Source: a virus
Direction: 5' to 3' (one strand)
Length of the DNA stretch: 47,257 nucleotides
IMG/VR virus record: IMGVR_UViG_3300021139_000027
Coordinates: 1 to 47,257 of that record
Both the position numbers and the translations under genes were made by a program. The notes below the pieces were generated by a model. It was not told the origin of the DNA and searched no databases. It was given only the letters and a program-made list of their open reading frames with translations. Positions 17,678 to 33,712 of this stretch are shown here, piece by piece. Position 1 is the stretch's first letter, and every line of letters begins with the position of its first letter.

Positions 17678-17691
17678 ACCTAAAATTATTT

Positions 17692-18105: not shown

Positions 18106-18144
18106 GTTTGCAGTCTAGTAAGAAGTTCGTATATTTAGTATACT

Positions 18145-19757: not shown

Positions 19758-20519
19758 ATGGTAAAGTTGATAAATTTATTACGAGAAACTAAACAAGGTC
19801 CAAAAGCAATATTTTTAGCTGGACCTGCAGGTGCCGGTAAATCTTTCATTAGTAAGCAGGTAATTCCAAGTGGTAAATTCAATGTTATTAACAGTGACGA
19901 TACTTACGAAGAATTATTAAAAGCATCTGGTTTAGGTATGAAGCAAAAAGACTTTGGACCTGAAGAATTATCACAAGCAGCTAAGTTACAAGCCCAGGCA
20001 CAAAAAGCTACAAAAGAGAAATATAGTCAAGCTCTAGAAAATCGTCACGATATTATTATAGATGGAACTGGTGCAGCATCTGGTCCGTTACTTAAAAAGA
20101 AAGCAGAGCTAGAAGAACTTGGTTATACCACATTTATGGTAATGATTTATGTATCACCTATGACATCTTTAGAGAGAAATGCAGATAGAGATAGATCTTT
20201 AATGCCTGCTATTGTACTAAGGACTTGGAGAGATGTTAACAAGAACATTCAGACATATGAACAAGCTTTTGGAGATAACTTTATACTGTTAAATAACGAC
20301 CCTGCAGGAGCAGATAAGTCTTTTGATCCGGCAATTGTAAAACGTCGATTCTTTGATACATCAACTGGTAAAGGTAAAGAGAAGACTCCTGAAGAGATGA
20401 TGAAGAGAGCACAAGAGGCAGCAGACTTAAATCAGAGTATAACATATATATTAAAATCAGAACCCGAAGCAATTGATATCGGGCAAGCAAAAGCAAAAAT
20501 ACAAGCATTCATAGGATGA
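19758..20519 (+). CDS. P-loop kinase (zeta-toxin/AAA-like) with N-terminal capsid-targeting-like tag
   Basis: A 253-aa protein. Residues 1-10 (MVKLINLLRE) form the shared tag with a predicted prohead-protease cut after Glu10. The enzyme follows at once: Walker A GPAGAGKS at 22-29, NSDD near 45-48, IIIDGTGA near 97-104 and an Arg-rich lid with ERNADRDRS. The arrangement matches zeta-toxin-like or polynucleotide-kinase-like small-molecule kinases. The substrate is unknown. It overlaps the next tagged gene by 4 nt. If packaged, it would act in the host from the moment of DNA entry. Confidence 0.8.
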   Translation: MVKLINLLRETKQGPKAIFLAGPAGAGKSFISKQVIPSGKFNVINSDDTYEELLKASGLGMKQKDFGPEELSQAAKLQAQAQKATKEKYSQALENRHDIIIDGTGAASGPLLKKKAELEELGYTTFMVMIYVSPMTSLERNADRDRSLMPAIVLRTWRDVNKNIQTYEQAFGDNFILLNNDPAGADKSFDPAIVKRRFFDTSTGKGKEKTPEEMMKRAQEAADLNQSITYILKSEPEAIDIGQAKAKIQAFIG

Positions 20520-22228
20520 TAGATATAACAAAACTTGGAACATTAATTGCAGAAGAGATAACAAACGAACCTGGTGTATGTTTTTACCCAGGTGGATTTA
20601 AACCTCCACACAAAGGACACTTTGAAGTAGCTAGAGATATATCTTCACGTAGCTATATTACGCATCTTTATATTATTATATCACCAAAAGAAAGAGACGG
20701 TATAACTGCCGAGCAGAGTTTAAAGGTATGGCAGACTTATTTAGCAGCACAACCACTACCAAAAGTCTCTGTAAGTATCTCTAAAACACAAACACCTGTT
20801 AAAGATGTATACGACTATCTTGCCGATCATCCTACTGAAAAACCGGTGTATATTGTAGGAGGTAGAGACGAAGTAGATGACCAGGGGTACTTTAAATCAC
20901 TTCAAAAAGCATTTGGAGAAAGAGTTGTACCAATTCCTGTGGAAGAAAAATTTGGTAGAATATCAGCTAGTTACGTTAGAGGTTTACTAAGAGCAGGTGA
21001 TGTAGATAGTTTTGAAGAAACTATACCTGAATCGGCTAAGAATAAGGGATATGCCGAGCCTATCTTTAAATTACTAGCTACTACAATTAAGCAACCTGTT
21101 ATTAAGGAAGGTGAAGAACCACATGAAGATGAAGCAATGTCTATCATTAACAAGTATATTCAATGGTGCGGGCAGATGTTAGAGATTGAAGAACTCCCAC
21201 ATATTGAATTTGTGTATGATACAAGTTTTACTTCTCAAAATCATAGCTTTGGTGGGTATACACCTGAAGATCATTCTATACTAATTTCAATAGCAAATAG
21301 GAATCTAGCAGATGTATTAAGAACTTTAGGACATGAACTAGTTCACCACCGTCAAAACGAAACAGTTGGTATAAATCCTGAAGATGGTAAAACAGGTACA
21401 GATGTAGAAAATGAAGCTAATGCGGTAGCTGGAATGCTGATGAGAACATTTGGTAAACAAGACCCACGCATCTACAATATTTTTATACCTGAAACATCAA
21501 CTACATTGCAGGAGGATACTAGATCAGTAGCTAGCAAGCTATTAACAGTATTACATGAGATGCGATTAACAGTAGCAAATGCGGCAGAAGTACACGGTGA
21601 CTTGTATCACGGGTATTTTAAGGTAGGAGATATAGAGTATAATTATAAAATTACTAAATTTGAAAATAATCCTTACAGTAGCGATTCTTTTTATTCTATA
21701 GAATTTACTGAGGTAGGTAATCCCGCTACTGATGTATCAATTCCAACTAAAAAAGCAGGCGGTAAAAACTATATTAAAATTCTTAGTACGATATATAAAG
21801 TACTTATTAATTTTACAGAAACAATGCAACCGGAGTATATTGGTATTTCTGCTCTTGATAAAAGTGGATATCTAAACATATATAACGATTTAACAAAATC
21901 TAATCCAATTCCGGGTTATTCTAGAAAAACAGTGGGGTTAGATTTTAAAACTAAAAGCGGTGATACGGGTAGGTTTATAGTATTAAAAAGGAATCAGGAT
22001 AAGGCACAGCTAACAGAATCTAAAGAGCATTACGTACCTTATATGTATTCTGCTCAAGGCTTTGGTTGCCATGTTTGTAAGTTTTACTACAAAGAGAAAG
22101 GTACGCATATGTGTAGTAATCCTGACTATAAAGCTTATAAAGGTACTAACGAATTATTAGATAACGAAGGTAATAATATTAAGGACCCGTCAAAATGGTG
22201 TTCTAACTGGTTTAAACCTAAAGGATAG
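20516..22228 (+). CDS. Tagged fusion: nucleotidyltransferase, zinc metallopeptidase, Cys-rich C-terminus
   Basis: A 570-aa multidomain protein. The tag is residues 1-13 (ending LIAE). Residues 18-190 form a cytidylyltransferase-like domain with HKGH at 32-35 and ISASYVR at 149-155. Residues about 205-325 contain a gluzincin-like peptidase: HELVH at 273-277 with Glu300 in NEANAVA as likely third ligand. Residues about 335-495 are an unrecognised domain. Residues 505-570 hold Cys518, Cys521, Cys533 and Cys562, a probable zinc site. L/I-x-E sequences lie between the domains at Glu198, Glu333 and Glu501, so the protein may be cut into separate enzymes by gp21. Confidence 0.75.
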   Translation: MIDITKLGTLIAEEITNEPGVCFYPGGFKPPHKGHFEVARDISSRSYITHLYIIISPKERDGITAEQSLKVWQTYLAAQPLPKVSVSISKTQTPVKDVYDYLADHPTEKPVYIVGGRDEVDDQGYFKSLQKAFGERVVPIPVEEKFGRISASYVRGLLRAGDVDSFEETIPESAKNKGYAEPIFKLLATTIKQPVIKEGEEPHEDEAMSIINKYIQWCGQMLEIEELPHIEFVYDTSFTSQNHSFGGYTPEDHSILISIANRNLADVLRTLGHELVHHRQNETVGINPEDGKTGTDVENEANAVAGMLMRTFGKQDPRIYNIFIPETSTTLQEDTRSVASKLLTVLHEMRLTVANAAEVHGDLYHGYFKVGDIEYNYKITKFENNPYSSDSFYSIEFTEVGNPATDVSIPTKKAGGKNYIKILSTIYKVLINFTETMQPEYIGISALDKSGYLNIYNDLTKSNPIPGYSRKTVGLDFKTKSGDTGRFIVLKRNQDKAQLTESKEHYVPYMYSAQGFGCHVCKFYYKEKGTHMCSNPDYKAYKGTNELLDNEGNNIKDPSKWCSNWFKPKG

Positions 22229-22863
22229 TGAAATTAATTAGTACAGGTAATACTTTTGATTCAACTCCGTATTGGACTAATCCTATTAAGAGATATAAAA
22301 CACCACAACTAACCTGTGTGGATTTATTTGATACTAATGGCTACGATTTAACTGATTTAGAACAGGATTACGCAGAAGTAAATACTCCAGCTGAAGATCA
22401 TAGATATAAGAGAGCCATAAAACGAACTTGGTTTACAACCAAAAGACCAATTGTAGAAGGAGTACACATAAATCATGCACTGCTATTTGAAAGAAAAGGA
22501 TACAGCGGTACAGCTTTAGAACAGTTAAAGGATTGGAGTAATGAGATGCCAATTGTAAGCAAACTAATAAAGATACGTTCAAAGTGGGGAATAGACCTAG
22601 CAATAGATTATGTTGATAGAGACGGTAATGCATTTGAGGTATTTCATTATGAATGGGATGATTTCGACTACGAAGCTGTGATGAGAGCTAAGACTAAAAT
22701 CGAAGAATTAGCATTATCAACAGATTGGGATGCAGCAGCTAAAGAACTATTAGAAAGAAGAAGTGAATGGGCTTCTTTACCTTTCTTTGAACAGAGTGAT
22801 TGGAAATGCAAATTCTTTAATATAGAACCTGAAAAGTTTAAAATAATAATTTGGAATGATTAA
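22228..22863 (+). CDS. Hypothetical protein, GTG start
   Basis: A 211-aa acidic protein rich in Trp and Asp/Glu. The GTG at 22228 overlaps the previous stop (TAGTG), which supports this start. There is no tag: the N-terminus reads MKLISTGNTF without an L/I-x-E site at position 10. No catalytic motif is apparent; conserved-looking blocks include KRTWFTTKRPIVEGVHINH and FEVFHYEWDDFDYE. Its end overlaps the next tagged gene by 8 nt. Function unknown. Confidence 0.65.
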   Translation: MKLISTGNTFDSTPYWTNPIKRYKTPQLTCVDLFDTNGYDLTDLEQDYAEVNTPAEDHRYKRAIKRTWFTTKRPIVEGVHINHALLFERKGYSGTALEQLKDWSNEMPIVSKLIKIRSKWGIDLAIDYVDRDGNAFEVFHYEWDDFDYEAVMRAKTKIEELALSTDWDAAAKELLERRSEWASLPFFEQSDWKCKFFNIEPEKFKIIIWND

Positions 22864-23365
22864 ATTAATGAGTTTACTGAAAGAAGTAGAAGAAGCACCT
22901 AAAAAACTTTACTGTGATTTAGATGGTGTCTTGGTTGATTTCGAGAAAGGTTATAAAAATTTAACTGGAAAGAAAGCTCCCGGTGTTAATTCCGGGTATA
23001 ATGCTAAAGAGTTTTGGGAGCCAATCACAAAAGCAGGTGTGCCTTTCTGGTCAAACCTAGATTGGATGCCTGACGGTAAGGAATTATGGGATCACATTAA
23101 GAAATTCCATCCAAGCATCTTATCGGCACCGTCAAGAGATGAATCATCAAGAATAGGTAAGAAGGTATGGATGAAAAAACATCTACCCGGTGTGGAGTTA
23201 CACCTAAAAGCAGCAGAACAAAAGCAAGATCTAGCCAAAGAAGGTGATATCTTAATCGATGATAGGATAGATAATTGTAGAAGATGGCAACTAGCAGGAG
23301 GAACAGCAATACATCACACATCAGCTGCCAGTACAATCCAGAAATTAAAAGATTTAGGTTATTAA
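22856..23365 (+). CDS. HAD-family 5'-nucleotidase-like phosphatase with tag
   Basis: A 169-aa protein. Tag MIKLMSLLKE (1-10) with predicted cleavage after Glu10. The HAD core follows: nucleophile and acid Asp21 and Asp23 in CDLDGVLVDF, motif II Ser/Thr near SAPSR (90-94), Lys near 103-108, and Asp135-Asp136 in ILIDDRIDN. This resembles 5'(3')-deoxyribonucleotidases, which dephosphorylate nucleotides. The ATG lies inside the end of the upstream gene, whose stop TAA is formed by the first codons of the tag (ATGATTAA). Confidence 0.82.
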   Translation: MIKLMSLLKEVEEAPKKLYCDLDGVLVDFEKGYKNLTGKKAPGVNSGYNAKEFWEPITKAGVPFWSNLDWMPDGKELWDHIKKFHPSILSAPSRDESSRIGKKVWMKKHLPGVELHLKAAEQKQDLAKEGDILIDDRIDNCRRWQLAGGTAIHHTSAASTIQKLKDLGY

Positions 23366-23384
23366 TTAATAGAAATAAACCGTT

Positions 23385-23960
23385 ATGCAAAGAGAAACTG
23401 TACTCAAGAAAGAGTTTAGTCAAAAAGATGTACAAAGAGCTAGAAACCTATTAACCGGTAATGCTTCGGCAGCTACTTCCTTACAGGCCGGATACGAAAA
23501 ATCTAGACAAGACTATAAAGAAGGTGATGTTTGGGAAGAACAAGGTAGAACTTGGACAATTAAAAATGGGTTAAAGCAAACTGTTACTAAGTTTGATTCT
23601 CTAAAAAAGTTACTAGTACTACCTCTAGCATGTCCAAACTGTGGTAAAGCATTAAAACTTACTGAACTGAATAAAAAAATGTATGCCATTCACCAAACCT
23701 GCTTTGATTGCGTTATTGAAAACGAAGCAAAATTAAAGCGTGAAGGTAAGTTCGAAGCATACCAAAAAGCTATTCTAAACGGTAATAAAAATGCCGTACT
23801 AGAAGATCTAGAAAGAGCTCTAGATGGGTGGTTATCGGAAACTACTTCCTTTGTATCCGAAGATGGAGTAGTAGAGGAGTGGAGTAAAGTCAAACTTAAA
23901 TCAGAAGACTTTGATGGAGTTAGAGAAGAAATAAAAAAGGCCAAGGAACAAGAGATCTAA
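23385..23960 (+). CDS. Hypothetical zinc-ribbon protein
   Basis: A 191-aa protein with a four-Cys zinc site: Cys83-x-x-Cys86 (ACPNCGKAL) and Cys106-x-x-Cys109 (TCFDCV). A basic helical N-terminus and a GDVWEEQGRTWTIKNG block (47-62) precede it. The acidic helical C-terminus follows. The pattern feels conserved among tailed phages but I cannot name a function. No tag is present. It could bind nucleic acid or RNA polymerase, as many phage zinc ribbons do. Confidence 0.6.
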   Translation: MQRETVLKKEFSQKDVQRARNLLTGNASAATSLQAGYEKSRQDYKEGDVWEEQGRTWTIKNGLKQTVTKFDSLKKLLVLPLACPNCGKALKLTELNKKMYAIHQTCFDCVIENEAKLKREGKFEAYQKAILNGNKNAVLEDLERALDGWLSETTSFVSEDGVVEEWSKVKLKSEDFDGVREEIKKAKEQEI

Positions 23961-23961
23961 A

Positions 23962-23971
23962 CTATTTATTA
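23962..23971 (+). promoter_or_regulatory. Putative phage promoter motif CTATTTATTA
   Basis: The motif ends 20 nt before the ATG at 23992. It is followed by TTATCAAAATAGATA, a 15-nt leader block repeated at 32522 upstream of another gene. Confidence 0.5.
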
Positions 23972-23991
23972 TCAAAATAGATAGATATTTT

Positions 23992-24633
23992 ATGCCAGCA
24001 ACTTCTCAAGCACAGCAACACACTGCAGCAATCGCATTAGCAGCAAAAGAAAAACATAACACTAAAGGTCTAAAAGGTCCTGCCAAAGCAATGTCACATA
24101 TGGCAAAGGGTGAACTAGAAAAATATGCTCACACCAAGCTAAAAGGCCTACCTAAACACGTACAGAAAGAATCAGTACTAGGTACTCATCCGGTTGATAC
24201 TATCGAATTTTGGGTTGTACAGAAACCAACCTCACATGAATCTTCTATCCAAGATATCGTTACCTCATGTGACCCATTCCAATTTGCAGATATGTGTAGA
24301 TCCGGTCTAGCTCCTGAAGCTGTACATGGATTTTATACAGAAGAAGAAGATGCTGAAAAAGCGGGTAAACAGTTATTAACTGATATGTATCATACTGCTA
24401 AATCTCTAGAAGAGAAGAAAGAAGAAGTAACAACTAAACTTCAAAAAACTATTGATAAGCTTCAAAAGAAAGCTGAAGAGCATATGAGAATGGTTAAGAA
24501 AGAACCAGACCAGGCCGATCATCACCACGAAGAAGCAGAAAAGATAATGGCACGTATCAAAGAATTACGTGGTAAACATAAGATGGTAGAAACAGCTAAA
24601 AAACAATTAAAACCTCTAGAAGAAGATAAATAA
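23992..24633 (+). CDS. DUF3008-like protein with long coiled coil
   Basis: A 213-aa protein. Residues 1-60 (MPATSQAQQHTAAIALAAK, GPAKAMSHMAKGELEKYA) resemble the small DUF3008 module widely seen in bacteria and phages. Residues about 65-125 are a mixed region, and 135-213 form a strongly charged coiled coil with a His-rich HHHEEAEK segment. The MAKGEL block recurs in the 30253 protein. It has its own promoter motif. Function unknown; it may be a structural or head-internal protein. Confidence 0.6.
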   Translation: MPATSQAQQHTAAIALAAKEKHNTKGLKGPAKAMSHMAKGELEKYAHTKLKGLPKHVQKESVLGTHPVDTIEFWVVQKPTSHESSIQDIVTSCDPFQFADMCRSGLAPEAVHGFYTEEEDAEKAGKQLLTDMYHTAKSLEEKKEEVTTKLQKTIDKLQKKAEEHMRMVKKEPDQADHHHEEAEKIMARIKELRGKHKMVETAKKQLKPLEEDK

Positions 24634-24635
24634 TT

Positions 24636-24998
24636 ATGGAACAATTTGCACAATTTATCTCAATGCTATTTGCATCGAGAACACAAGCTCACATTTTACA
24701 CCTTCAAACAGATTCTTTTGCAGCACATAAAGCTTTACAGGAATACTACGAAGAGATTGTAGAAATCGCCGATGGCCTAGTAGAATCATATCAAGGTAGA
24801 TATGGTATTTTAAGAGATTACAGCGGTCAGGCTACATTCAAAGAGGATAATCAACCTCTAGCATATTTTGAAGCACTGGATAAATATGTGGAAACAACAA
24901 GACAGGTGATCCCTCAAGATTCTTACATTCAAAATGAAGTAGATACTTTAGTGGCTTTAATTGAAAGTACTAAGTATAAGCTTAAATTCTTACACTAA
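24636..24998 (+). CDS. Ferritin/Dps-like helical protein
   Basis: A 120-aa, almost wholly helical protein. The first half (ASRTQAHILHLQTDSFAAH, then LQEYYEEIVEIADGLVESY) follows the His-rich helix-A/helix-B pattern of Dps and related small phage proteins. The complete set of ferroxidase residues cannot be confirmed by eye. It follows the DUF3008-like gene after 2 nt and is followed 1 nt later by a Cys-containing protein. A four-helix protein that binds metal or DNA is plausible; enzymatic activity is unproven. Confidence 0.5.
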   Translation: MEQFAQFISMLFASRTQAHILHLQTDSFAAHKALQEYYEEIVEIADGLVESYQGRYGILRDYSGQATFKEDNQPLAYFEALDKYVETTRQVIPQDSYIQNEVDTLVALIESTKYKLKFLH

Positions 24999-24999
24999 T

Positions 25000-25320
25000 A
25001 TGTTACTAGAAACTGATTCATATTGTCCATCTTGTCTAGCTGAATATCTTATTGAACATGAAGATAAGTTAGTAGAAGCCGAATACAGAGGCCGTAAAGT
25101 GACTCTAGGTAAACCATTTTTAACACCTGGTGGACCTAAGAAGAGATCTGTTTATGTTAAGAATGCAAAAGGTAATGTCGTAAAGGTAAACTTTGGTGAT
25201 CCAAAAATGAGAATCAAAAAGTTTATACCTGCAAGACGTAGATCCTATAGAGCAAGACACCATTGTCAAAACCCAGGACCACGAGATCGTGCAAATTATT
25301 GGAGCTGTAAATTTTGGTAA
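25000..25320 (+). CDS. Small conserved phage protein, Cys and Arg rich
   Basis: A 106-aa protein. The N-terminus (MLLETDSYCPSCLAEY) contains a CPSC pair. Residues about 40-106 form a basic block with KRSVYVKNAKGNVVKVNFGD, RRRSYRARHHC and ANYWSCKFW, a combination I associate with a domain found in many myoviruses and sometimes fused to other head proteins. L-V-E at about residue 28 could be a prohead-protease site. The ATG at 25000 is preferred over the upstream TTG at 24961, which would overlap the previous gene by 38 nt. Confidence 0.65.
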   Translation: MLLETDSYCPSCLAEYLIEHEDKLVEAEYRGRKVTLGKPFLTPGGPKKRSVYVKNAKGNVVKVNFGDPKMRIKKFIPARRRSYRARHHCQNPGPRDRANYWSCKFW

Positions 25321-25321
25321 A

Positions 25322-25954
25322 ATGTATTACGTGTATTTATTAGTAGATCCTCAAGATAACCAGCCGTTCTATTGCGGAAAAGGTAAAGGAAGTAGATGGA
25401 AATCACATTTAGGGTACTGGAGTGGTAACGGAAAAAATAGCAGGTGTGAGAATAAAATAAAAAGCCTAAGAGCGAAAGGAATTGAACCGGAAGTGAGATT
25501 CTTAGTTGAAAATATAGAAGAAGAGGAAGTAGCCTATAAGATAGAAGAGAGCTATATTAGAGAGCATTTTGATAGTTTAGTAAATCTTAAAATAGAAGCT
25601 AAGCCACCAAGTAGGAAAGGAAAACCGAGCTGGAATAAAGGAATTAATATGCCAAAAGAGTTTAGTGATAGGCAGAGTGAAAGATTGAAAGAGGAGTATA
25701 GAGCCGGTAAGAGATGTAATTGGAGTGATAGGTTATCAGAAGAAGAGAAGCATGCTTTTTACTCTAAAATGGCATTATGTAAAAAAAATTTTACAAGTAA
25801 AAGAAAAACTAAGGTATACTGTGAGCAGCTAGATAAACTATTTGAAAGCCAGACTGAAGCAGCAATTCAATTAGGATTAAAACAGGGGGATATTTCAAAT
25901 GTGCTTGCTGGGAGACAAACGACAACAAAAGGTTACACTTTTAAATACATGTAG
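25322..25954 (+). CDS. GIY-YIG homing endonuclease with NUMOD-type C-terminus
   Basis: A 210-aa protein. The GIY-YIG nuclease domain covers residues 1-90: YVYLL and FYCGKGKG are the two core strands, Arg25 is the likely catalytic Arg and a Glu near 78-80 the metal ligand. A Lys/Trp linker (PSWNKGI) and a C-terminal NUMOD-like DNA-binding segment (AAIQLGLKQGDISNVLAGR) follow. Such genes are selfish mobile elements that insert near conserved genes. I chose the ATG at 25322, directly after the previous stop, because the domain begins there. Confidence 0.88.
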   Translation: MYYVYLLVDPQDNQPFYCGKGKGSRWKSHLGYWSGNGKNSRCENKIKSLRAKGIEPEVRFLVENIEEEEVAYKIEESYIREHFDSLVNLKIEAKPPSRKGKPSWNKGINMPKEFSDRQSERLKEEYRAGKRCNWSDRLSEEEKHAFYSKMALCKKNFTSKRKTKVYCEQLDKLFESQTEAAIQLGLKQGDISNVLAGRQTTTKGYTFKYM

Positions 25955-25976
25955 AGCTTGGTAAAATAATACTACA

Positions 25977-26417
25977 ATGAACGTATATAACTTTTTTAAA
26001 TTCTTAGAGAAAACAGATAATAGGAAAACACCTTTTTTAGTAAAATTAGCATTAGCACCTGAAGATTTAACACCGGAAGAGCTACATATTAAGAGAAGTT
26101 TAATATTATCTCCTTTATCGGATTTTTATTTTGAAGAACCAATATCGCTACCCGATAATATGACTATTGAGGGGAACTTTATTTTAGACGAAGTGAGGAT
26201 AGATGGTAGGATATTACCGAACGGATTAGTAGTAAAAGGAAATCTAGAAATAGATTTTTGTGATATTACAGAACTTCCTTCAGATATGATAGTAGGTGAA
26301 GATGTTCATATAGATTCAGAAGATTTAGTTCAAACCTATAAAACTCCGGCAGCAGTAAAAAGAGCCTGTCCAGGTATAAAAGGTAAAGTTTACATGCCTG
26401 AACTTGATTATAGGTAA
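25977..26417 (+). CDS. Hypothetical protein with LRR-like beta repeats
   Basis: A 146-aa protein. Residues 55-125 contain about four degenerate repeats of the form L-P-(D/N)-x-(M/L)-x-(I/V)-x-G-(N/D)-(F/L)-x-(L/I), for example LPDNMTIEGNFIL and LPNGLVVKGNLEI. These would stack as a short right-handed solenoid. Such repeats usually mediate binding. There is no tag. It lies after the homing endonuclease gene with a 22-nt gap, so it may have been separated from its original neighbour. Confidence 0.55.
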   Translation: MNVYNFFKFLEKTDNRKTPFLVKLALAPEDLTPEELHIKRSLILSPLSDFYFEEPISLPDNMTIEGNFILDEVRIDGRILPNGLVVKGNLEIDFCDITELPSDMIVGEDVHIDSEDLVQTYKTPAAVKRACPGIKGKVYMPELDYR

Positions 26418-26432
26418 TACAGATAGAGAGTA

Positions 26433-26807
26433 ATGATTAAACTTACTAATATACTAAGAGAAATTCTTGAAGAGAAAGAAGACCGATGCTTAAGAATTGC
26501 CCGTCGTAGATACGATAAGCCTTCCGCTTATAGATCTGGTGCAATTGTGAGATGTAGGAAAGGTGAGATTTGGAAAGACTTAAAAGAAGAAGAAGAATCT
26601 CTACATAAATGGTTTTCAAGAAAAGGTGGTGAAGGACATAGAGGCTGGGTAGATTGTAATACCTGTCATGAAGTAGACGGTAAAAAGAAATGTAAACCAT
26701 GTGGAAGACAGGATGGTGAGACTAGAGCAAAGTATCCTTCCTGCCGACCAACACCATCACAGTGTAGTAGATCAGGTAAAGGTAAAACTTGGGGCAAAAC
26801 AAAATGA
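26433..26807 (+). CDS. Tagged Cys-rich protein, DUF5872-like
   Basis: A 124-aa protein. Tag MIKLTNILRE with a possible second cut in the following ILEE. Residues 18-50 (CLRIARRRY, PSAYRSGAIVRCRKG) and 57-115 (LHKWFSRKGG, GWVDCNTC, CKPCGR, CRPTPSQC) are two modules that often occur together in phage proteins and that I recall as DUF5872. They are separated by an L-x-E site (DLKE). Several Cys pairs suggest zinc. Strongly basic, consistent with DNA binding inside the head. Confidence 0.65.
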   Translation: MIKLTNILREILEEKEDRCLRIARRRYDKPSAYRSGAIVRCRKGEIWKDLKEEEESLHKWFSRKGGEGHRGWVDCNTCHEVDGKKKCKPCGRQDGETRAKYPSCRPTPSQCSRSGKGKTWGKTK

Positions 26808-26992
26808 TAAAGCTAATTGATATACTTACTGAAGTAAAAGAAGGAATTGATGACCCAGTTCAACCTGGTATACTAAAGAATAGATTAGGTAAACTTTCTT
26901 GTACAAGAGTAAGATCTGCAAAAGCTAAACTAAAAAATAAAGGTACTCATTACGCAAAAGCATTACAGAGATATTTAAACTACCACTGTTAA
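26804..26992 (+). CDS. Small tagged basic protein
   Basis: A 62-aa protein: tag MIKLIDILTE (1-10), a short acidic spacer, then a basic helical domain (PGILKNRLGKLSCTRVRSAK, then YAKALQRYLNYHC). The ATG at 26804 overlaps the previous stop as ATGA and gives the exact tag, so I reject the earlier start at 26789. After removal of the tag the product would be a 52-residue basic peptide, similar in size and charge to small internal head proteins. Confidence 0.65.
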   Translation: MIKLIDILTEVKEGIDDPVQPGILKNRLGKLSCTRVRSAKAKLKNKGTHYAKALQRYLNYHC

Positions 26993-26996
26993 AACT

Positions 26997-27344
26997 ATGA
27001 TAAAACTAACTGAATTAATATTAGAAGATAAGACCGTACCGGAAAAAGCTTTTGAAGAATTTGCCGATAAAAGATTTGGTGGGGCAGAAAAGATAGCCGA
27101 TAACGCTAAAGAAAAAGGTGGACCTTCTATGTTAACCTACCACCATTTTCATGCTAAACTACCTTACTACGAGAAAGCTGCAGAAGGTAAATTTAAGGTA
27201 GAAGAAGCAGAAAAGGAATACCAAAAACTAGTAGAAGAGCTTTACAAAAAAACCAAGAAAGAAATGAAAATAGAACAAGTAGCTTTCCAGAAATTAGTTG
27301 GACGTATTGAAGTTCTAGGTGAATTACTTATAAAACATAAATAA
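26997..27344 (+). CDS. Small tagged helical protein
   Basis: A 115-aa, Lys/Glu-rich, helical protein beginning MIKLTELILE with predicted cleavage after Glu10. Conserved-looking blocks are PSMLTYHHFHAKLPYYEKA and the C-terminal helix with AFQKLVGRIEVLGELL. No enzyme motif was found. It lies 4 nt after one tagged gene and 1 nt before another. Function unknown; capsid-internal cargo by inference from the tag. Confidence 0.62.
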   Translation: MIKLTELILEDKTVPEKAFEEFADKRFGGAEKIADNAKEKGGPSMLTYHHFHAKLPYYEKAAEGKFKVEEAEKEYQKLVEELYKKTKKEMKIEQVAFQKLVGRIEVLGELLIKHK

Positions 27345-27345
27345 G

Positions 27346-28239
27346 ATGATAAAGCTAATAGATTTACTAAAAGAATGTGTTATCGCTGCAGTACATGTAG
27401 ACGGTGATACTGTATTAGCCAAAAATAGAGATAGAGGTTACACTGCTAAAATACGTATTGTTCATGAATTAATGGACGGTGTTGAAGTAGTATATTGGTT
27501 AGATGAAGATACAGACTGGTGTGAAGGTATGAATGAACATGGTATTGGCATTGTAAATTCAAGTCTACTAGTAGGTAAAGATGAAAAAGAAAGCGATAAG
27601 ATAGAAAAGAAGCAAAAGGGTAATCACGATGCTACTGAGAAGAAAATTACATCCACTGACGGTCTTAAGATTAGACATGCATTAAAACAAAACTCTATTA
27701 GAGATGCAATTGAATCAGTAGTATCTTATGTAGGTAAAGATAAGAAAGACGTAGGTGTAAAAGGACACGTAATGGTAGCTACACCAAAAGTTAGTTACAA
27801 TGTTGAATCTACAAGTAAGAATACACCTATTATAACTAAGTTAGATAGAGAAGAGAAAACTCACACAAGATCAAATCATGGTATATCTCATGAAGATGCA
27901 GGTTATACTCAAGGTGTTAAAAGAAGATCATCACTATCAAGAAGAGATTTAGCTGCAAGAAACCTAGATGAAGTAGAAGATTGGAATGAAGTGTTAGATG
28001 CAATGGCTAAACAAACTGAATCTGATCCTTTTATGAATCCATTCAGACATGATAATATTTACAAAATGCGTACTATAGGTCAAATCATGATGAATTTAAA
28101 CAAACTTAAATTCGTATACAGAGGTACATCAGCACACTCTGAATTTAAAGGATACGACAATAGATTACCAGACGATTATGAACCAAAGATAGAAGTAATA
28201 ATTTTAGACTCCGTTAAACCAAGAGATTCAGATGATTAA
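27346..28239 (+). CDS. Tagged Ntn-type (N-terminal Cys) hydrolase
   Basis: A 297-aa protein. The tag MIKLIDLLKE is followed immediately by Cys11 in CVIAAVHVDGD, then AKNRDRG (25-31) and EGMNEHGIGIVNSS (60-73). This is the pattern of Cys Ntn hydrolases such as choloylglycine hydrolase and C45-type acyltransferases, whose nucleophile must be residue 1. Cutting after Glu10 would expose that Cys. The C-terminal region (about 225-290) is a separate alpha/beta part. The substrate is unknown; an amide or acyl group is expected. It overlaps the next tagged gene by 8 nt. Confidence 0.68.
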   Translation: MIKLIDLLKECVIAAVHVDGDTVLAKNRDRGYTAKIRIVHELMDGVEVVYWLDEDTDWCEGMNEHGIGIVNSSLLVGKDEKESDKIEKKQKGNHDATEKKITSTDGLKIRHALKQNSIRDAIESVVSYVGKDKKDVGVKGHVMVATPKVSYNVESTSKNTPIITKLDREEKTHTRSNHGISHEDAGYTQGVKRRSSLSRRDLAARNLDEVEDWNEVLDAMAKQTESDPFMNPFRHDNIYKMRTIGQIMMNLNKLKFVYRGTSAHSEFKGYDNRLPDDYEPKIEVIILDSVKPRDSDD

Positions 28240-28957
28240 ACTAAAACAAGTACTAACAGAAGTACTGATCGAACAAGATATAACAGGTAAGTATCCTGAG
28301 CTAAATGAGAATAAAGCTTTAAAAGCAGGTGCGATGGCATTTATGTCGGCATGTCTAATAGGTCATTCGTACGGACAGTGCTCTCAACAGTTACAAGCAG
28401 CAATGCAAAATCCGAATGACCCTAAAAATGCTAAGGTATTAGCCGGATCTCAAGTTGATCTAGATAAAAAAATTAGCGGAGCTAATTATCAGATGATGTC
28501 ACCTGAGGATAGAGCGTTAATGAAAAAACAGTCAAAAGAAGATGCTGAAGCTGCTAGACAATCTGCTAAACAAGAAAACCGTGATTTTAACGATAAGTTT
28601 AATCCTAAATTAAATTTACAAGGTGAAAAACTAAGTAAAGAAGAAAGACAGGCATTTACATCTAACTTTAATAGTTTTATTAGTAGAAATCCTCAATTTA
28701 AAATAGACCCAAGTAGATATACAGTAGAAGAAAGATATGCCTTTTTAACAAAAGTTGCTCAAGAACAATCTACTATTAGAAGAATAAATGTATTATTCGG
28801 TAGACCAAATCCATATGAGAATACTAGAATGTCTCTAGATGACCTATACAAGTACATACAGGACCCTAAGTTAAATGGATTTGATAGCTTCACTGAAACT
28901 TATAGAAAAGGTTTTCCTGGGGTAAAATTCCCTGATAATCCACATAAATTTGATTAA
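28232..28957 (+). CDS. Tagged hypothetical protein
   Basis: A 241-aa protein. Tag MIKLKQVLTE, followed by VLIE, a second possible cut. Residues about 28-50 are hydrophobic and small (LKAGAMAFMSACLIG) and could be membrane-active once the tag is gone. The remainder is a charged, Gln/Lys/Asp-rich helical region with no known motif. It shares the ATGATTAA overlap with its upstream neighbour. Function unknown. Confidence 0.6.
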   Translation: MIKLKQVLTEVLIEQDITGKYPELNENKALKAGAMAFMSACLIGHSYGQCSQQLQAAMQNPNDPKNAKVLAGSQVDLDKKISGANYQMMSPEDRALMKKQSKEDAEAARQSAKQENRDFNDKFNPKLNLQGEKLSKEERQAFTSNFNSFISRNPQFKIDPSRYTVEERYAFLTKVAQEQSTIRRINVLFGRPNPYENTRMSLDDLYKYIQDPKLNGFDSFTETYRKGFPGVKFPDNPHKFD

Positions 28958-29389
28958 GTGATTAAACTATTAGACATACTAAAAGAATCGGCTGAACCTA
29001 ATATTTTCTATTTCGCATATGGTTCTAATATGGAGCATAAAAGAATGAAACATAGATGTCCAGATGCTGTAAAATATTCCGATGGAGTATTATTTGGATG
29101 GAAAAGAGAGGTGAATGAAAAAGGTGTAGATACAATAGTAAGAGGTGAGAGTAGCGATGATCATGTAGAGGGTGTAGTTTGGTTGATATCTAAATCTGAT
29201 GTAGAAACTCTTGATAAGAGAGAAGGTGTTAAGATAGGCGACTACATTAAACGTCATCTTGAAGTAGACACACCAGGTGAAGATAAAATCTGCTTAGTAT
29301 ACATTACCACAAACAGTAAACCAGGTACAGCAAAAGCTAACTATAAAAGAATAGTTAAAAAAGGAGAGGAAGAGAACAAAATTCGGTAG
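28958..29389 (+). CDS. Tagged gamma-glutamylcyclotransferase-like protein
   Basis: A 143-aa protein with a GTG start placed directly after the previous stop; this start gives the exact tag MIKLLDILKE. The GGCT fold follows: the substrate-loop signature FAYGSNM at 19-25, the VEGVVWLIS strand at about 70-78 and catalytic Glu89 in LDKREGV. The family releases 5-oxoproline from gamma-glutamyl compounds, and some members act on glutathione. Delivered at infection it might alter host thiol pools, but that is speculation. Confidence 0.8.
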   Translation: MIKLLDILKESAEPNIFYFAYGSNMEHKRMKHRCPDAVKYSDGVLFGWKREVNEKGVDTIVRGESSDDHVEGVVWLISKSDVETLDKREGVKIGDYIKRHLEVDTPGEDKICLVYITTNSKPGTAKANYKRIVKKGEEENKIR

Positions 29390-29399
29390 CTATTTATAA
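29390..29399 (+). promoter_or_regulatory. Putative phage promoter motif CTATTTATAA
   Basis: The motif starts one base after the GGCT stop codon and ends 12 nt before the ATG at 29412. The following TTAAAG matches the site at 1835. Confidence 0.55.
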
Positions 29400-29411
29400 T
29401 TAAAGGAATAC

Positions 29412-29747
29412 ATGATAAAGCTGGTAGAACTATTTAATGAAGAAGCATCTGCTACAACCTATCAATTGATCGGTAAATTAACTGTTAATACAACTAAACG
29501 TACTCTAGGTGATATACTAGCCGATATAAGAGCTATTGAAAGAGTAACAATTGTAAGAGGTGAAGGACAACCTAACGATGTCCCAACCAATAATCCGTCT
29601 TACACTGAAGAATTAAAAGTAAAGATTGATCCGTTTCCATTTACCTCCTTTGGTAAACAGCAAGCAGAAGAAATTATAAGTCTAATTAAACACGTAAATG
29701 GTGTAACCACTTTTATACCTTCACAATCAGTACGTAAGATAAAGTAA
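29412..29747 (+). CDS. Small tagged protein, ferredoxin-like fold possible
   Basis: A 111-aa protein. Tag MIKLVELFNE (1-10). The remainder alternates strand and helix (TLGDILADIRAIERVTIVRG, then ELKVKIDPFPF, then EIISLIKHVNGVTTFI) like a ferredoxin-like or ACT-type domain. No catalytic residues stand out, so it may bind a ligand or partner. A promoter motif lies just upstream and another just downstream, making it a single-gene unit. Confidence 0.6.
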   Translation: MIKLVELFNEEASATTYQLIGKLTVNTTKRTLGDILADIRAIERVTIVRGEGQPNDVPTNNPSYTEELKVKIDPFPFTSFGKQQAEEIISLIKHVNGVTTFIPSQSVRKIK

Positions 29748-29750
29748 CAG

Positions 29751-29760
29751 CTATTTATAT
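29751..29760 (+). promoter_or_regulatory. Putative phage promoter motif CTATTTATAT
   Basis: The motif ends 7 nt before the lysozyme ATG at 29768, with an A-rich leader (AAAAACA). It would give the lysozyme gene its own start site. Confidence 0.55.
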
Positions 29761-29767
29761 AAAAACA

Positions 29768-30241
29768 ATGATAACAATAAACGATAACTGCATTAACCTA
29801 ATTAAATCATTTGAAGGTTTTTCAGCAAAAGCATACCATGATTCAATTGATCCTAAAGGAGTTGACACTATTGGATATGGAACAATTCAATATCCCCCAA
29901 CATATATGGGAGGTAAGAAAGTACAGGTAGGTGATCCTGATATTACTGAATCACAGGCAGTTGAATTTCTAAAATGGGAAGTAGAATTAAAGACTAAATT
30001 CGTAGATGCCCTTATTATAGATACTTTAACACCTAATCAATTTGGTGCTCTAGTATCATTTGCTTATAACCTAGGTGAAGGAGCTCTAAAAGGTTCTACC
30101 TTAAGAAAGAAAGTTAATGCTAATCCTAGTGATCCTACAATTAAAGATGAATTTTTAAAGTGGGATATGGCTTCTGGACAACATATTAAAGGATTACAAA
30201 GACGTAGAAAAGCAGAATCCGATTTATATTTTACAAAATAA
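29768..30241 (+). CDS. Endolysin, GH24 T4-type lysozyme
   Basis: A 157-aa muramidase of glycoside hydrolase family 24. The catalytic set matches T4 lysozyme E11/D20/T26: Glu16 in KSFEGF, Asp25 in YHDS and Thr34 in DTIGYGT. The helical lobe has LTPNQFGALVSFAYNLG and the C-terminus has HIKGLQRRRKAE. It cuts peptidoglycan at lysis. There is no signal peptide, so a holin elsewhere is needed; none is obvious. It has no capsid tag although tagged genes flank it. Confidence 0.93.
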   Translation: MITINDNCINLIKSFEGFSAKAYHDSIDPKGVDTIGYGTIQYPPTYMGGKKVQVGDPDITESQAVEFLKWEVELKTKFVDALIIDTLTPNQFGALVSFAYNLGEGALKGSTLRKKVNANPSDPTIKDEFLKWDMASGQHIKGLQRRRKAESDLYFTK

Positions 30242-30252
30242 AAAATATAGCA

Positions 30253-30447
30253 ATGACACTTAAACAATACTTAAGAGAATGTGGTGAATGTGAAAGACAA
30301 TCTACAGATTGGACTCAAGGCCATAACCATGCCGGTAAAATGGCTAAAGGTGAGTTAAAAGACCTAATCATGAATGCCGTAGAGGTATATAAAATGTTAG
30401 GACCAAATGACGAAATTCCGGGTTGGATCGCATCATATATTACCTAG
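30253..30447 (+). CDS. Conserved small protein, prematurely ended by an amber codon
   Basis: A 64-aa product (to the TAG at 30445). It starts MTLKQYLRECGECE with an L-R-E site at 7-9, then GKMAKGELKDLI, a block shared with the 23992 protein, and a C-terminal NDEIPGWIASYIT. In relatives that I recall, this module continues through a helix of the form ASDYIHSV. Here the reading frame does continue past the TAG with exactly such a sequence. The product may be truncated or extended by readthrough. Confidence 0.6.
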   Translation: MTLKQYLRECGECERQSTDWTQGHNHAGKMAKGELKDLIMNAVEVYKMLGPNDEIPGWIASYIT

Positions 30448-30582
30448 TCTTCAGACTATATACATTCAGTAAAAGAATCGTTAGCAGAAGAAGCAACAGA
30501 GATGGATAATGACTGGGAAGAAGATAACTACGAAGAAGAGCCAGTACCGACTGAATATATTACAGAAAGAAAAAGAAAGTAA
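30445..30582 (+). other. In-frame continuation after TAG (readthrough extension or recent nonsense mutation)
   Basis: After TAG at 30445-30447 the same frame stays open for 44 codons to TAA at 30580, reading SSDYIHSVKESLAEEATEMD and then an acidic tail. The TAA overlaps the next ATG as TAATG, the junction used throughout this genome. This suggests the intact gene ran from 30253 to 30582. TAG is used as an ordinary stop elsewhere in the window (for example 1062, 9281, 22228, 29389 and 36222), so genome-wide recoding is unlikely. Confidence 0.65.
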
Positions 30583-31133
30583 TGCAAACAAAGCAAGTAT
30601 TAAAATATCTTATCGAACAAGAAGTTCGTAAGTACTTAAGAGAAGGTGAAGATACAACAACACCGGGACCATTAAAACCTGCTAGATCTTTTGAAGAAGA
30701 TCCTGTACAGTTTATATTAAGTAAGTACCCTTCTCTAAGAGAGACTCTTGCTATGTTATTAACTAATGATTACCCTGATTATATTACAGGTGTGTATGTA
30801 ATTGCACCTAAACCTACAACATTCAAAATTGTTTTACATAATGGTCAATTTTTCTATTTAAGATATTTAGGCAGATCTTATGAAGCTAAAATTGAAGCTA
30901 AAAGATACTACCTACTAACTCTAGGAGAAAGACAAAGAGCTACTCTAGCAATTGCACACCTATTAGAATTAGGTGCACCTACTAACATAGAAGGACCAGA
31001 GAAAGAAGTAGCACATAATGAAACACCTGCGGAAGTTGGAGGAGGTTCACCTTCATCACCAAGTGGACAACCGGAACCACCTCAACCTGAAACACCACCA
31101 AGTCAAGCAGAAGAAGAAAAGACTGAATCTTAA
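30582..31133 (+). CDS. Hypothetical protein with charged leader and Pro-rich tail
   Basis: A 183-aa protein. The leader MQTKQVLKYLIEQE followed by KYLREGED has two L/I-x-E sites, a divergent version of the tag. Residues about 40-135 form a compact helix/strand domain with FKIVLHNGQFFYLRY and GRSYEAKIEAKRYYLL. The last 45 residues are Pro/Glu/Ser-rich and disordered. It is linked by TAATG on both sides. Function unknown. Confidence 0.6.
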   Translation: MQTKQVLKYLIEQEVRKYLREGEDTTTPGPLKPARSFEEDPVQFILSKYPSLRETLAMLLTNDYPDYITGVYVIAPKPTTFKIVLHNGQFFYLRYLGRSYEAKIEAKRYYLLTLGERQRATLAIAHLLELGAPTNIEGPEKEVAHNETPAEVGGGSPSSPSGQPEPPQPETPPSQAEEEKTES

Positions 31134-32488
31134 TGATAAAACCAATAGATATATTAAGAGAGGTTTCTTCTCTAAATTCAACAACTCTACTCAAACCCAT
31201 ACCCGGGTACGTGGATAGAGGTGAAGTTCTATTGAAAAAAATAGAAGGAGAAGAACCTATCGCCTTAGTTAACGGTGACGAAATTGTAGTTAATCCTGAG
31301 ACTAGTTTAACTTTTATTGATCTTTTAAGAGGTAAGAAGTATAAGGAGTTAACTAATGTTAAGTTCTATGATATAGCTGGACTAGGACATAAACTTAGTG
31401 AACTAGCTAAGACTCAAGAATTTGGAAGTAGTAAAGGTATTGGCGGTGGTGCTGCACAGACTGCTTTACAGGAATCAGCACAGTGTTTAGTCCTAGCACT
31501 TCGTTACCATAAAGGTAGTGATTTAACAGAATCAGATCTAGAAGAAGAAGAAAGTCTAAAAGACGTAGCAAGTGACATAGAGGTATCTGAACCTATTGAT
31601 AAAGTTATTGAGTTCATTGAGAATAGTACATCATGGCAATCCACAATGGTTAATACTGCTAATGTAGTTGCAGGGAAGTATCATAAGAGTTATAAATTTT
31701 ACAGAGGAAAGGGTATCGTTGATAAAATAGATCGTGCAGCTAAAAAAGCTTTATCACAAGCAAAAGTAGGACTAAACATTAATAAATGGAATCCATCTGA
31801 TATTTGGATGGCTACCGAAGATGTTAATGAAGAAGACTTTCCTGAAGATATAGATGAGTTAAATGATTTACTTTTAGAGCTTTTTAGAGAAGAAAGACTG
31901 ATCGGATTATCACTTAAGAAGTGTGTGTCAAGCTGTAAATCAGAGGTTAATAACCTATCTAGAGAAGCAAACGAAAAGAAAAAAATTACCTATGAAGGTA
32001 TAAAAGATAAGAACGAAAACATCTTTAAAGCAAAAGATATCTACCTTATTACAACCAAAGGAACAGTTCAATTTAGAAACTTTCAGAACATAACCGGATG
32101 GATGGGTGAGATAAAAGGTGAAGGAGCAGCAGGCGGTAAGATAGGGTTTGAAGCAATAAATGCTATGTTAACCTCGATTACGAATACACCACTATCCTCA
32201 CAGCAAGAGGTATTAACTCAATGCGGGAAACCAAGTAAAGAGTTTATTAATCACTTCTATAAACACTACCAGGCTACAGATCTAGACCCTAAGGTTAGCT
32301 TAGAAGAATTTACAAAACAGTTTATGGAAGCCGGATTAGGAAGTAGAACAAGTAACTATTTTAACATGGAACTATTAGGTCAACTAGATAACCTAGACAA
32401 AGAAGACCAGGATAGTTTTGCAAGAGATTTATTTAACTACGCTAGCTCTAACACAGAATATTCTTCTGTATTTGTAAAAATATCATAA
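31133..32488 (+). CDS. Large tagged protein, possible nuclease-like
   Basis: A 451-aa protein. Tag MIKPIDILRE. The body has GIGGGAAQTALQESAQCLV (about 101-119) with a conserved-looking Glu, and later LNINKWNPSDIWMA (about 217-230); an E...K-W-x-P-x-D-I-W combination occurs in some phage PD-(D/E)xK-like proteins, but I cannot confirm a nuclease. The C-terminal third (YLITTKGTVQFRNF, GEIKGEGAAGGKIGF) is probably a further conserved region. It is the largest single-domain tagged candidate. Confidence 0.62.
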   Translation: MIKPIDILREVSSLNSTTLLKPIPGYVDRGEVLLKKIEGEEPIALVNGDEIVVNPETSLTFIDLLRGKKYKELTNVKFYDIAGLGHKLSELAKTQEFGSSKGIGGGAAQTALQESAQCLVLALRYHKGSDLTESDLEEEESLKDVASDIEVSEPIDKVIEFIENSTSWQSTMVNTANVVAGKYHKSYKFYRGKGIVDKIDRAAKKALSQAKVGLNINKWNPSDIWMATEDVNEEDFPEDIDELNDLLLELFREERLIGLSLKKCVSSCKSEVNNLSREANEKKKITYEGIKDKNENIFKAKDIYLITTKGTVQFRNFQNITGWMGEIKGEGAAGGKIGFEAINAMLTSITNTPLSSQQEVLTQCGKPSKEFINHFYKHYQATDLDPKVSLEEFTKQFMEAGLGSRTSNYFNMELLGQLDNLDKEDQDSFARDLFNYASSNTEYSSVFVKIS

Positions 32489-32541
32489 TAAAGTTGCTAA
32501 TCTGAAAATACTTTCATACCTTTATCAAAATAGATATAGAT

Positions 32542-32790
32542 ATGGAAGAAGCATTTAAAACAATCAAGACACCGGATGGTGTAGTCCTACACACTTATAC
32601 AGCCCCTGGTAAGAAGCCAGTCCCGCATTCCTTAGATGGCCCTGCCATTAAGTACCCCAAAGATTCTAAACGTAAAGACGAGTATTTTATATTCGGTGTA
32701 GCTTATTCGAAAGATAAGTGGACTGAATTAAAAGATGATAGTAAGGTAACTTTTATACCAATTGATCCAAGGTTAGAAGGCGGTAATTAA
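32542..32790 (+). CDS. Small hypothetical protein
   Basis: An 82-aa protein with a block HSLDGPAIKYPKDSKRKDEY followed by FIFGVAYSKDKW, which looks conserved among tailed phages. No enzyme motif or tag. It is preceded by a 53-nt gap containing the 15-nt leader repeat TTATCAAAATAGATA, also found before 23992. Function unknown. Confidence 0.6.
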   Translation: MEEAFKTIKTPDGVVLHTYTAPGKKPVPHSLDGPAIKYPKDSKRKDEYFIFGVAYSKDKWTELKDDSKVTFIPIDPRLEGGN

Positions 32791-32799
32791 TTTCTGTGC

Positions 32800-32809
32800 C
32801 TATTTATTA
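32800..32809 (+). promoter_or_regulatory. Putative phage promoter motif CTATTTATTA
   Basis: The motif is preceded by CTGTGC and ends 15 nt before the ATG at 32825, with an AT-rich leader. Confidence 0.52.
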
Positions 32810-32824
32810 TAAATTAATTAAACA

Positions 32825-33712
32825 ATGGCAAAACAAGAGTTAATAAAAGAGGCATTCAAGTTGCAGCAATTAGCTGGTATTAAATCTCTTTATGAGTTTG
32901 AAAGTGATCATATGAAAGAAGCTATGGAAGATGACGACGTAGCAGATAGCTGGGATAAACCAGAAGACGATGGTGAAGATTTCGAAAAAGAACCTTCAAT
33001 GAAGGATATCAAGACAGTAGAAAAGAAAGCAGGTGGTAAACAAGCTAAACTAGCTAGACTTATCCAGCAAAAAGATGTTATCTTAGCTAAGTTTAAATCA
33101 GGGGAAATCTCAATAGGTGAGTACAAAGAAGAAATCGGTAACATACCTCAACAAATTAAAAATCTACAAGCCGATATCGAAAAATCAATGGGTATGGGTG
33201 GAAGTGAAGAAGAGATGGGAGACGAAGAAGCTTTGTATGAATCTAGACTAAGAGGTGCTATTCGTCTTGAAGTAAAAAAAATCTTAAGAGAGAATCGTTT
33301 AGATGAATTATCACCTGAATTAAAGCAAAGAGCTGCCGATAAAATGGGAGACCAAGCACTTGCATTACGTAACTCTACTGACGATGTTCTTAAATTTAAA
33401 AGAAGATCTGCTCAATATACAACAGCAAGTCAACATGTTGATCCAACTGTAAAAGCAGCAGGAGATAAACTAGCTATGCAGTTAGGTAACGGGTATAAAT
33501 GTAAAGTAACTAAAGAATCAACAGATAATCGAGCCCTTATTACATTTGATGGACCTAGTGGTATGATAGAAATACTAGTTACTCCAACCGGTTACCACTT
33601 TAGAGCAGGTTCACATCCGGAAGATGTAGAAAAAATAGCAAGACCATTAGAAAGATTTATTGCACAAGTTCGTAAAGCTGAAATAGTAACAAAAGGATCA
33701 AACGAACTATAA
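32825..33712 (+). CDS. Head-core-like protein with QQLAG motif
   Basis: A 295-aa acidic protein. It begins MAKQELIKE, then AFKLQQLAGIKSLYE (10-24). The QQLAG motif also occurs at the extreme C-terminus of the gp22-like scaffold. Residues 50-130 are charged helices; KKILRENRLDEL near 152-163 includes an I-L-R-E site; residues about 185-285 form a compact domain (YKCKVTKESTDNRALITF, IEILVTPTGYHFRAG). It is plausibly a core component or cargo cut by gp21 to release its C-terminal domain. Function unknown. Confidence 0.58.
   Translation: MAKQELIKEAFKLQQLAGIKSLYEFESDHMKEAMEDDDVADSWDKPEDDGEDFEKEPSMKDIKTVEKKAGGKQAKLARLIQQKDVILAKFKSGEISIGEYKEEIGNIPQQIKNLQADIEKSMGMGGSEEEMGDEEALYESRLRGAIRLEVKKILRENRLDELSPELKQRAADKMGDQALALRNSTDDVLKFKRRSAQYTTASQHVDPTVKAAGDKLAMQLGNGYKCKVTKESTDNRALITFDGPSGMIEILVTPTGYHFRAGSHPEDVEKIARPLERFIAQVRKAEIVTKGSNEL

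Follow-up and report, generated by a model that had tools for sequence, protein, structure and literature searches.

Ten of the 53 genes in IMG/VR virus record IMGVR_UViG_3300021139_000027 (positions 1 to 47,257, the whole stretch of 47,257 nucleotides analysed here and called the window) open with nearly the same decapeptide, MIKLxxILxE, all of them on the + strand. The virus record identifies the window as a 47-kb piece of a myovirus of the T4 superfamily, and the setting is that of a virus of water bacteria. We consider it very probable that the decapeptide acts as a capsid-targeting sequence like those of the T4 internal proteins, a single address shared by a whole set of enzymes, and that it is removed by the gp21-type head protease before the enzymes are injected. 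What the sequence shows directly is the tag with its register, the unrelated protein bodies that carry it, the accompanying head genes and an [LIVM]-x-E right before a Cys in every relative read of one tagged enzyme. For a large group of aquatic myoviruses this probably amounts to a general enzyme delivery, in which an exchangeable tag stands on dozens of enzymes and the head protease both strips the tag and switches on at least one proenzyme.

The ten starts and decapeptides listed in the first-pass annotation were all re-read at their positions and Glu is indeed residue 10 in 10/10; at 28958 the start codon is GTG, read as Met. The tagged genes are as follows (a slash, here and below, marks the predicted cut).

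19758..20519, + strand: tag MVKLINLLRE (19758..19787); P-loop kinase, Zeta-toxin/AAA_33-like (PF06414, E 1.6e-12, domain from residue 12)
22856..23365, + strand: tag MIKLMSLLKE (22856..22885); 5'(3')-deoxyribonucleotidase, HAD fold (phrog_2643, E 7e-29, family match from residue 13)
26433..26807, + strand: tag MIKLTNILRE (26433..26462); small basic DUF5872-like protein, with similarly tagged relatives in contigs L100, L105, L153 and L165
26804..26992, + strand: tag MIKLIDILTE (26804..26833); basic protein of 62 amino acids
26997..27344, + strand: tag MIKLTELILE (26997..27026); protein of 115 amino acids, whose body recurs behind similar tags in many contigs and behind MRLLELLRE in phage immuto
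27346..28239, + strand: tag MIKLIDLLKE (27346..27375), then Cys11 as candidate nucleophile, E10-C11 being invariant in homologues; predicted proenzyme of a C45/AAT-like N-terminal-nucleophile (Ntn) hydrolase (NF040521 profile, AlphaFold2 model)
28232..28957, + strand: tag MIKLKQVLTE (28232..28261); protein of 241 amino acids with a second [LI]-x-E at E14
28958..29389, + strand: tag (V/M)IKLLDILKE (28958..28987); gamma-glutamyl cyclotransferase (PF13772, E 1e-12; PF06094, E 2e-9; domain from residue 18)
29412..29747, + strand: tag MIKLVELFNE (29412..29441); protein of 111 amino acids
31133..32488, + strand: tag MIKPIDILRE (31133..31162); phrog_1462 protein (E 1e-54)

For the strict pattern M-[IV]-K-[LP]-x-x-[LIVF]-[LFI]-x-E, the residue frequencies at the 53 gene starts give an expectation of 2e-4 matches, against 10 seen (probability of at least 10 about 1e-44), and no further occurrence was found elsewhere in the window proteins (about 14,780 residues). 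The likeness among the tagged genes stops at residue 10: the ten bodies, compared by BLASTP, gave no mutual match (best E 0.12) and are thus as unrelated as had been claimed. Pairs of the ten genes average about 0.7 nucleotide identity within the 30 tag bases, compared with 0.27-0.33 on either flank. This sharp boundary at 30 bases, together with the clustering of the tags in one locus (about 14 kb, flanked by a primase/exonuclease pair and the terminase), is what would be expected if the common 5' ends had been left behind by recombination or by the duplication of a gene start, promoter and first codons included, with a functionless peptide. We regard such an origin as hardly credible, as the bases upstream of the tags are not common (identity 0.31-0.33) and the codons differ in half of the pairs that encode the same residue (113/228); this synonymous variation, already noted in the first-pass annotation, indicates that the peptide rather than the DNA is conserved. 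Relatives, too, preserve the tag as a peptide while its codons change synonymously (the cyclotransferase gene at 28958 and its 63%-identical relative in contig L008 have identical tag residues and 3 synonymous changes), and in IMG/VR it stands on at least 90 body clusters. The pattern brought up three relatives of this cyclotransferase in IMG/VR, too few for tagged and untagged forms to be compared.

A peptide conserved in this way can be set against T4. Mullaney and Black are said to have described, in 1996, the capsid-targeting sequence of IPI, IPII, IPIII and Alt and its processing by gp21. According to mutagenesis of T4 IPIII, ten residues are enough, of which 4 and 7 serve targeting and 8 and 10 processing (PMC9026906). 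Nine of the ten window tags are hydrophobic at 4, 7 and 8 and carry Glu10, and the T4 record holds, in the same frame, MKTYQEFIAE (IPII, IPIII), MAKINELLRE (gp24) and MELITELFDE (Alt). The decapeptide could instead address its proteins to another structure, such as the tail, the baseplate, a membrane or a replication compartment, with the [LI]-x-E incidental; short amphipathic N-terminal targeting is generic. This is nevertheless very unlikely, given that the register equals that of the T4 sequence, that [LIVM]-x-E right before the Ntn Cys in 53/53 leaders points to a cut there, and that tagged proteins of cyanophage S-CREM2 are found in virions (the last two points are set out below).

The capsid-targeting reading also finds the head genes that it needs downstream of the tagged locus, in the order terminase (34636), portal, three core-like genes, gp21 protease, acidic scaffold and gp23.

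36252..38186, + strand: portal, gp20-type (phrog_213, E 5e-60)
41419..42042, + strand: gp21-type prohead protease, itself starting MSKQVLIE (phrog_207, E 6e-43; 33% identity to T4 gp21)
42219..43469, + strand: acidic scaffold, gp22-like by position and composition
43500..45203, + strand: gp23-type major capsid protein (phrog_138, E 2e-67)

The gp21 homologue proposed at 41419 is therefore confirmed, and through it the closest named relatives are Flavobacterium phage immuto and Microcystis phage Mel-JY01. The scaffold has 102 Asp or Glu among 416 residues and 20 [LI]-x-E sites, and a family search with it gave no match. In gp23, LVVE/TSL lies at the aligned position of T4 gp23 FLTE/AEI, and the same site reads IVSE in immuto, LISE in Mel-JY01 and LLTE in S-CREM2; since these sites align, the protease of the window lineage, to judge from the alignment, very likely keeps the [LIV]-x-E rule. 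The genome thus encodes a gp21-type protease as well as another substrate, gp23, with an [LIV]-x-E site.

The gene at 27346 bears on the cut itself. Its product reads MIKLIDLLKE/CVIAAVHVDGDTVLAKNRDRG and resembles the NCBIfam C45 proenzyme profile NF040521 (E 5e-9), and Pfam AAT is matched by 3/7 of its homologues. Searches of PDB sequences by phmmer and profiles gave chance matches only, whereas fold comparison succeeded: the AlphaFold2 model (low confidence at residues 1-9, about 86 from residue 11 onward) was matched by Foldseek to isopenicillin N acyltransferase, choloylglycine hydrolase and penicillin V acylase in the PDB (E 2.5e-7 to 1e-3; 2x1c/2x1d, 3hbc and penicillin V acylase entries among them), and as modelled the protein has an Ntn-hydrolase fold of the C45/AAT-like kind. 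AAT, choloylglycine hydrolase and penicillin V acylase act through an N-terminal Cys, and because enzymes of this kind do so, the leader must come off exactly before the Cys. E10 and C11 are invariant in 7 homologues. We then collected 431 IMG/VR relatives without reference to the leader and read 91 loci with 53 distinct leaders: Glu stands at -1 of the Cys in 53/53, and -3 is Leu or Ile in 51/53, the remaining two having Met and Val. At their other positions the leaders are variable (entropy 2.6-3.6 bits), and their length runs from 5 to more than 60 residues, as in MIKLRNLLHELNE/C, MIKLRHLLHDLSE/C, MIKLLNLVKKPLEE/C and MKLLE/C. In some leaders the site is shifted towards the Cys, so that the targeting half is retained and the tag's own Glu10 may be lost; in MIKLRHLLHDLSE/C, E10 of the tag is gone and the [LIVM]-x-E site now lies beside the Cys. 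As the candidate nucleophile directly follows the site in every relative read, the leader would be removed at [LI]-x-E, and we know of no cause other than head-protease cleavage for an [LIVM]-x-E/C pattern.

C45 proenzymes are autoproteolytic, as the family name of NF040521 states, and the hydrolase might free its own Cys in this way, which would leave its leader uninformative on gp21. This is improbable: autoproteolysis leaves an obligate [LIVM]-x-E unexplained in leaders that otherwise share little, and the phages themselves encode a protease of [LIVM]-x-E-type specificity. Moreover, residue 10 of the 27346 protein aligns with profile position 89, so that the usual propeptide of roughly 90 residues is replaced by a short tag; the long autoproteolytic propeptide characteristic of the C45/AAT family is absent. 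Cleavage by the head protease also agrees with the company that the enzyme keeps, as isolate phages MA9V-1 and MA9V-2 encode both a C45-like enzyme and gp21 (the MA9V-1 site being FLNE/C), and gp21 was found in 12/16 contigs of at least 100 kb with a C45-like enzyme. Cellular genomes were searched for relatives as an outgroup for the residues before the Cys, and none were found.

Two further observations were made among these relatives. In L358, L386, L409 and L420, the C45-like domain lies behind a longer in-frame N-terminal part, with [LIV]-x-E/C at the junction, and these proteins are possibly polyproteins cut by the head protease. In MA9V-1 (L350, OR050627.1), the gp21-type protease is annotated inside a gene of 4,044 bp (126501-130544), the open frame of which, at 1349 amino acids, is far above the usual gp21 length.

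Published virion proteomes of cyanophages allow the tag to be compared with virion content. The S-CREM2 proteome obtained by mass spectrometry lists 52 of 219 open reading frames (ORFs) (PMC10665884 Table 3). Using these data, we found the strict T4-register pattern in 6 ORFs, 5 of which are virion-detected (Fisher p=2.4e-4 for the association among non-structural ORFs): a SAM hydrolase (MKDFDSFLEE), ORF13 (MKDLHSFLTE), an APH/ChoK-like kinase (MKRFDAFLTE), ORF136 (MQTFSMFFSE) and a cytidylyltransferase (MKNFSSFLTE). The fixed register matters, since the association weakened (5/10 virion-detected) when Glu was allowed to slide over positions 8-13. In S-SCSM1, the virion NMNAT begins MKSFLQFLKE (PMC9602691). 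For isolate MA9V-1, the published virion data are a gel that does not name its proteins. Two genes of the window locus have virion-detected relatives.

20516..22228, + strand: cytidylyltransferase/NMNAT-like protein of 570 amino acids (phrog_3041, E 2e-7) with weak leader MIDITKLGTLIAE/E (E13); its families are common to S-CREM2 gp154 and S-SCSM1 gp91, both virion-detected
23992..24633, + strand: DUF3008 protein without strict tag (PF11450, E 3e-11); its relative S-SCSM1 gp93 (PF11450, E 3.5e-7) is flagged as a virion protein

Beyond the window, a degenerate DNA pattern for the tag gave at least 151 matches in at least 120 IMG/VR stretches, nearly all at ORF starts, compared with 9 stretches for the reversed DNA pattern over the whole collection. 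Around the listed matches, 200 complete tagged ORFs fell into at least 90 body clusters; Pfam families among these bodies are ART-PolyVal, NUDIX, RNase T, phosphoribosyltransferase, lysozyme, LysM and MPTase-PolyVal, so that the cargo in this sample includes ADP-ribosyltransferase, NUDIX, exonuclease and metallopeptidase families. We found gp21 in 33/60 tag contigs and in 6/42 random contigs of at least 19 kb (p=2e-5); counts of the tag register around gp21 are dominated by homologous structural genes and serve as background only. The first-pass annotation had asked whether the tag is common in phages without gp21 and whether the two always go together. Among tag contigs of at least 100 kb, gp21 is present in 9/11, and the other 2 probably miss the head module, because gp23 is absent there too. 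Because most records are fragments, these counts fall short of proving constant company.

Several points weigh against the capsid-targeting reading. No gp21 was seen in 27/60 tag contigs, most of which are fragments, and contig L101 (44 kb) has scaffold and gp23 with no gp21 at the usual place, and is possibly an exception, the only one seen, to the tag occurring with gp21. The tag at 31133 has Pro at residue 4, the sole exception to the register among the ten. In S-SCSM1, 1/3 strict-tag genes (the NMNAT) is flagged as a virion protein. The hydrolase at 27346 scores 35.9 bits against NF040521, where the curated cut-off is 85, and is thus C45-like and not filed as a member; its enzymatic activity is putative. 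Because the relatives share ancestry, their 53 leaders count as fewer than 53 independent events. Finally, the authors of the S-CREM2 study caution that enzymes expressed at high levels may come along in virion purification (PMC10665884). With regard to this caution, the common leader argues for true packaging of the S-CREM2 enzymes. The first-pass proposal of enzymes packaged in the head, processed and injected with the DNA now draws on the T4 register, the head genes with the gp23 site, the constraint on the Cys behind the cut and the S-CREM2 virion proteins; virion presence, cutting and injection in the window phage itself are what we infer.

In the mechanism that we propose, residues 1-8 would make up a short amphipathic segment that binds the scaffold core through hydrophobic residues 4 and 7, and the enzyme would thereby be enclosed on closure of the gp23 shell. 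The gp21-type protease would then cut behind [LI]-x-E at residue 10, and the mature enzyme would stay in the head, be ejected with the DNA and act immediately in the new host. At 27346, the cut would turn Cys11 into the N-terminal nucleophile, and the head protease would in this way activate a packaged proenzyme; the enzyme would be inactive in the producing cell and switched on only inside the maturing head. All of these steps, from scaffold docking and packaging to cutting, activation and injection, are put forward for the window phage. By analogy, the range of the cargo (deoxyribonucleotidase, kinase, NMNAT-like protein, gamma-glutamyl cyclotransferase and acyl-amide hydrolase-like protein, and in other contigs ADP-ribosyltransferase and NUDIX) suggests early take-over or counter-defence, for which T4 Alt and IPI are precedents; a PADLOC search with the tagged proteins found no defence family (one weak AriA match, E 0.006). 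The tagged proteins may alternatively be packaged as structural or core parts, acting on head size or DNA compaction, and not as injected effectors: some are small and basic like the T4 internal proteins, and T4 IPIII influences head assembly (PMC9026906). We hold this to be unlikely, as the set includes unmistakable enzymes (nucleotidase, cyclotransferase, kinase, Ntn hydrolase) and the bodies turn over between related phages.

The first-pass annotation had also listed weaker tags at 20516, 30253, 30582 and 32825. An [LI]-x-E does lie near the start of each, and none matches the strict register. Apart from the gene at 20516 given above, these are as follows.

30253..30447, + strand: protein of 64 amino acids with leader MTLKQYLRE/C (E9)
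30582..31133, + strand: protein of 183 amino acids with leader MQTKQVLKYLIE/QEVRKYLRE/GED (E12 and E21)
32825..33712, + strand: protein of 295 amino acids with leader MAKQELIKE/AF (E9), then KLQQLAGI

The KLQQLAGI near the N-terminus of the last protein resembles the scaffold C-terminus. A second recurrent motif, [RK]-[MLW]-[QK]-x-LAG-[ILV], is found at scaffold C-termini (RMQQLAGL, RWQKLAGI, RMKKLAGI, RFRKLAGI) and also near the N-terminus of some locus genes (KLQQLAGI, RRMQKLAGIITES); it was located in the window at the C-terminus of 42219-43469 and the N-terminus of 32825-33712, and in L002 at 11675, L003 at 23870 and L101 at 8274, and is perhaps a second core-binding tag. In immuto (L002), other repeated leaders, MKKSQLRxIIxEEL and DLKKFLVENKLTxNSRLLxE, stand on unrelated genes of the same locus (2294-4354, 13188, 17631-18931 and 23355) and are likely further capsid-tag classes. 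Two homing endonucleases also occur in the window: a GIY-YIG/NUMOD enzyme at 25289-25954, amid the tagged genes and itself without a tag, and a LAGLIDADG enzyme in an intein that splits the Walker A motif (GSGK/T, the slash here giving alternative residues) of a PhoH-like ATPase (45917-47257), the gene of which runs off the contig end.

In the literature, searched largely without subscription journals, we did not find described the scale, the enzyme diversity, the occurrence in a large uncultured group or a head-protease-activated proenzyme, and no paper joining 'Ntn hydrolase' and 'prohead protease' was found. A rule readable from genomes, namely hydrophobic residues 4, 7 and 8 with Glu10, or else an [LI]-x-E that precedes an N-terminal nucleophile, would recast many 'hypothetical' or 'auxiliary metabolic' phage genes as predicted injected effectors, which would act before any phage gene expression. 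It suggests a reason for the recurrent kinases and NMNATs in cyanophage virions, and for the proenzyme it implies a built-in safety logic, in which an enzyme possibly harmful to the producing cell would be switched on only inside the capsid.

The kind of tag is known from T4, and phage P1 DarB and the giant phages are functional parallels. With T4 IPI, IPII, IPIII and Alt, the window genes share a 10-residue leader that is hydrophobic at 4, 7 and 8 with Glu10, unrelated bodies, a gp21-type protease and co-processing of gp23. They differ in that T4 has few tags, whereas the window has at least ten strict ones in a partial genome, on mostly metabolic-type enzymes, with the flavour MIKLxDILxE and with one cargo that would be activated by the cut. 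Cyanophages S-CREM2 (PMC10665884) and S-SCSM1 (PMC9602691) carry the same kinds of enzyme (NMNAT/cytidylyltransferase, kinase) in their virions, and we show here that these bear T4-register leaders (MKNFSSFLTE, MKRFDAFLTE, MKSFLQFLKE) of the flavour M-K-x-F-x-x-F-L-x-E, as against MIKL in the window; in the available portions of both papers, no packaging signal is proposed and co-purification is left open (PMC10665884, PMC9602691). In phage P1, an N-terminal signal directs the injected anti-restriction protein DarB to the head interior and is functional on a foreign protein as well, but the Dar proteins have no common consensus and the signal is longer than nine residues (PMC9024508). In giant phages phiKZ and SPN3US, a head protease likewise cuts after Glu in packaged, ejected proteins, by contrast at an A-x-E or S-x-E motif and mostly behind long propeptides (PMC5694885). 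The C45/AAT Ntn hydrolases (isopenicillin N acyltransferase, penicillin V acylase, bile salt hydrolase) resemble the 27346 protein in fold and in the position of the N-terminal Cys; they have a long autoproteolytic propeptide, whereas the leader at 27346 is a capsid tag that ends in [LI]-x-E.

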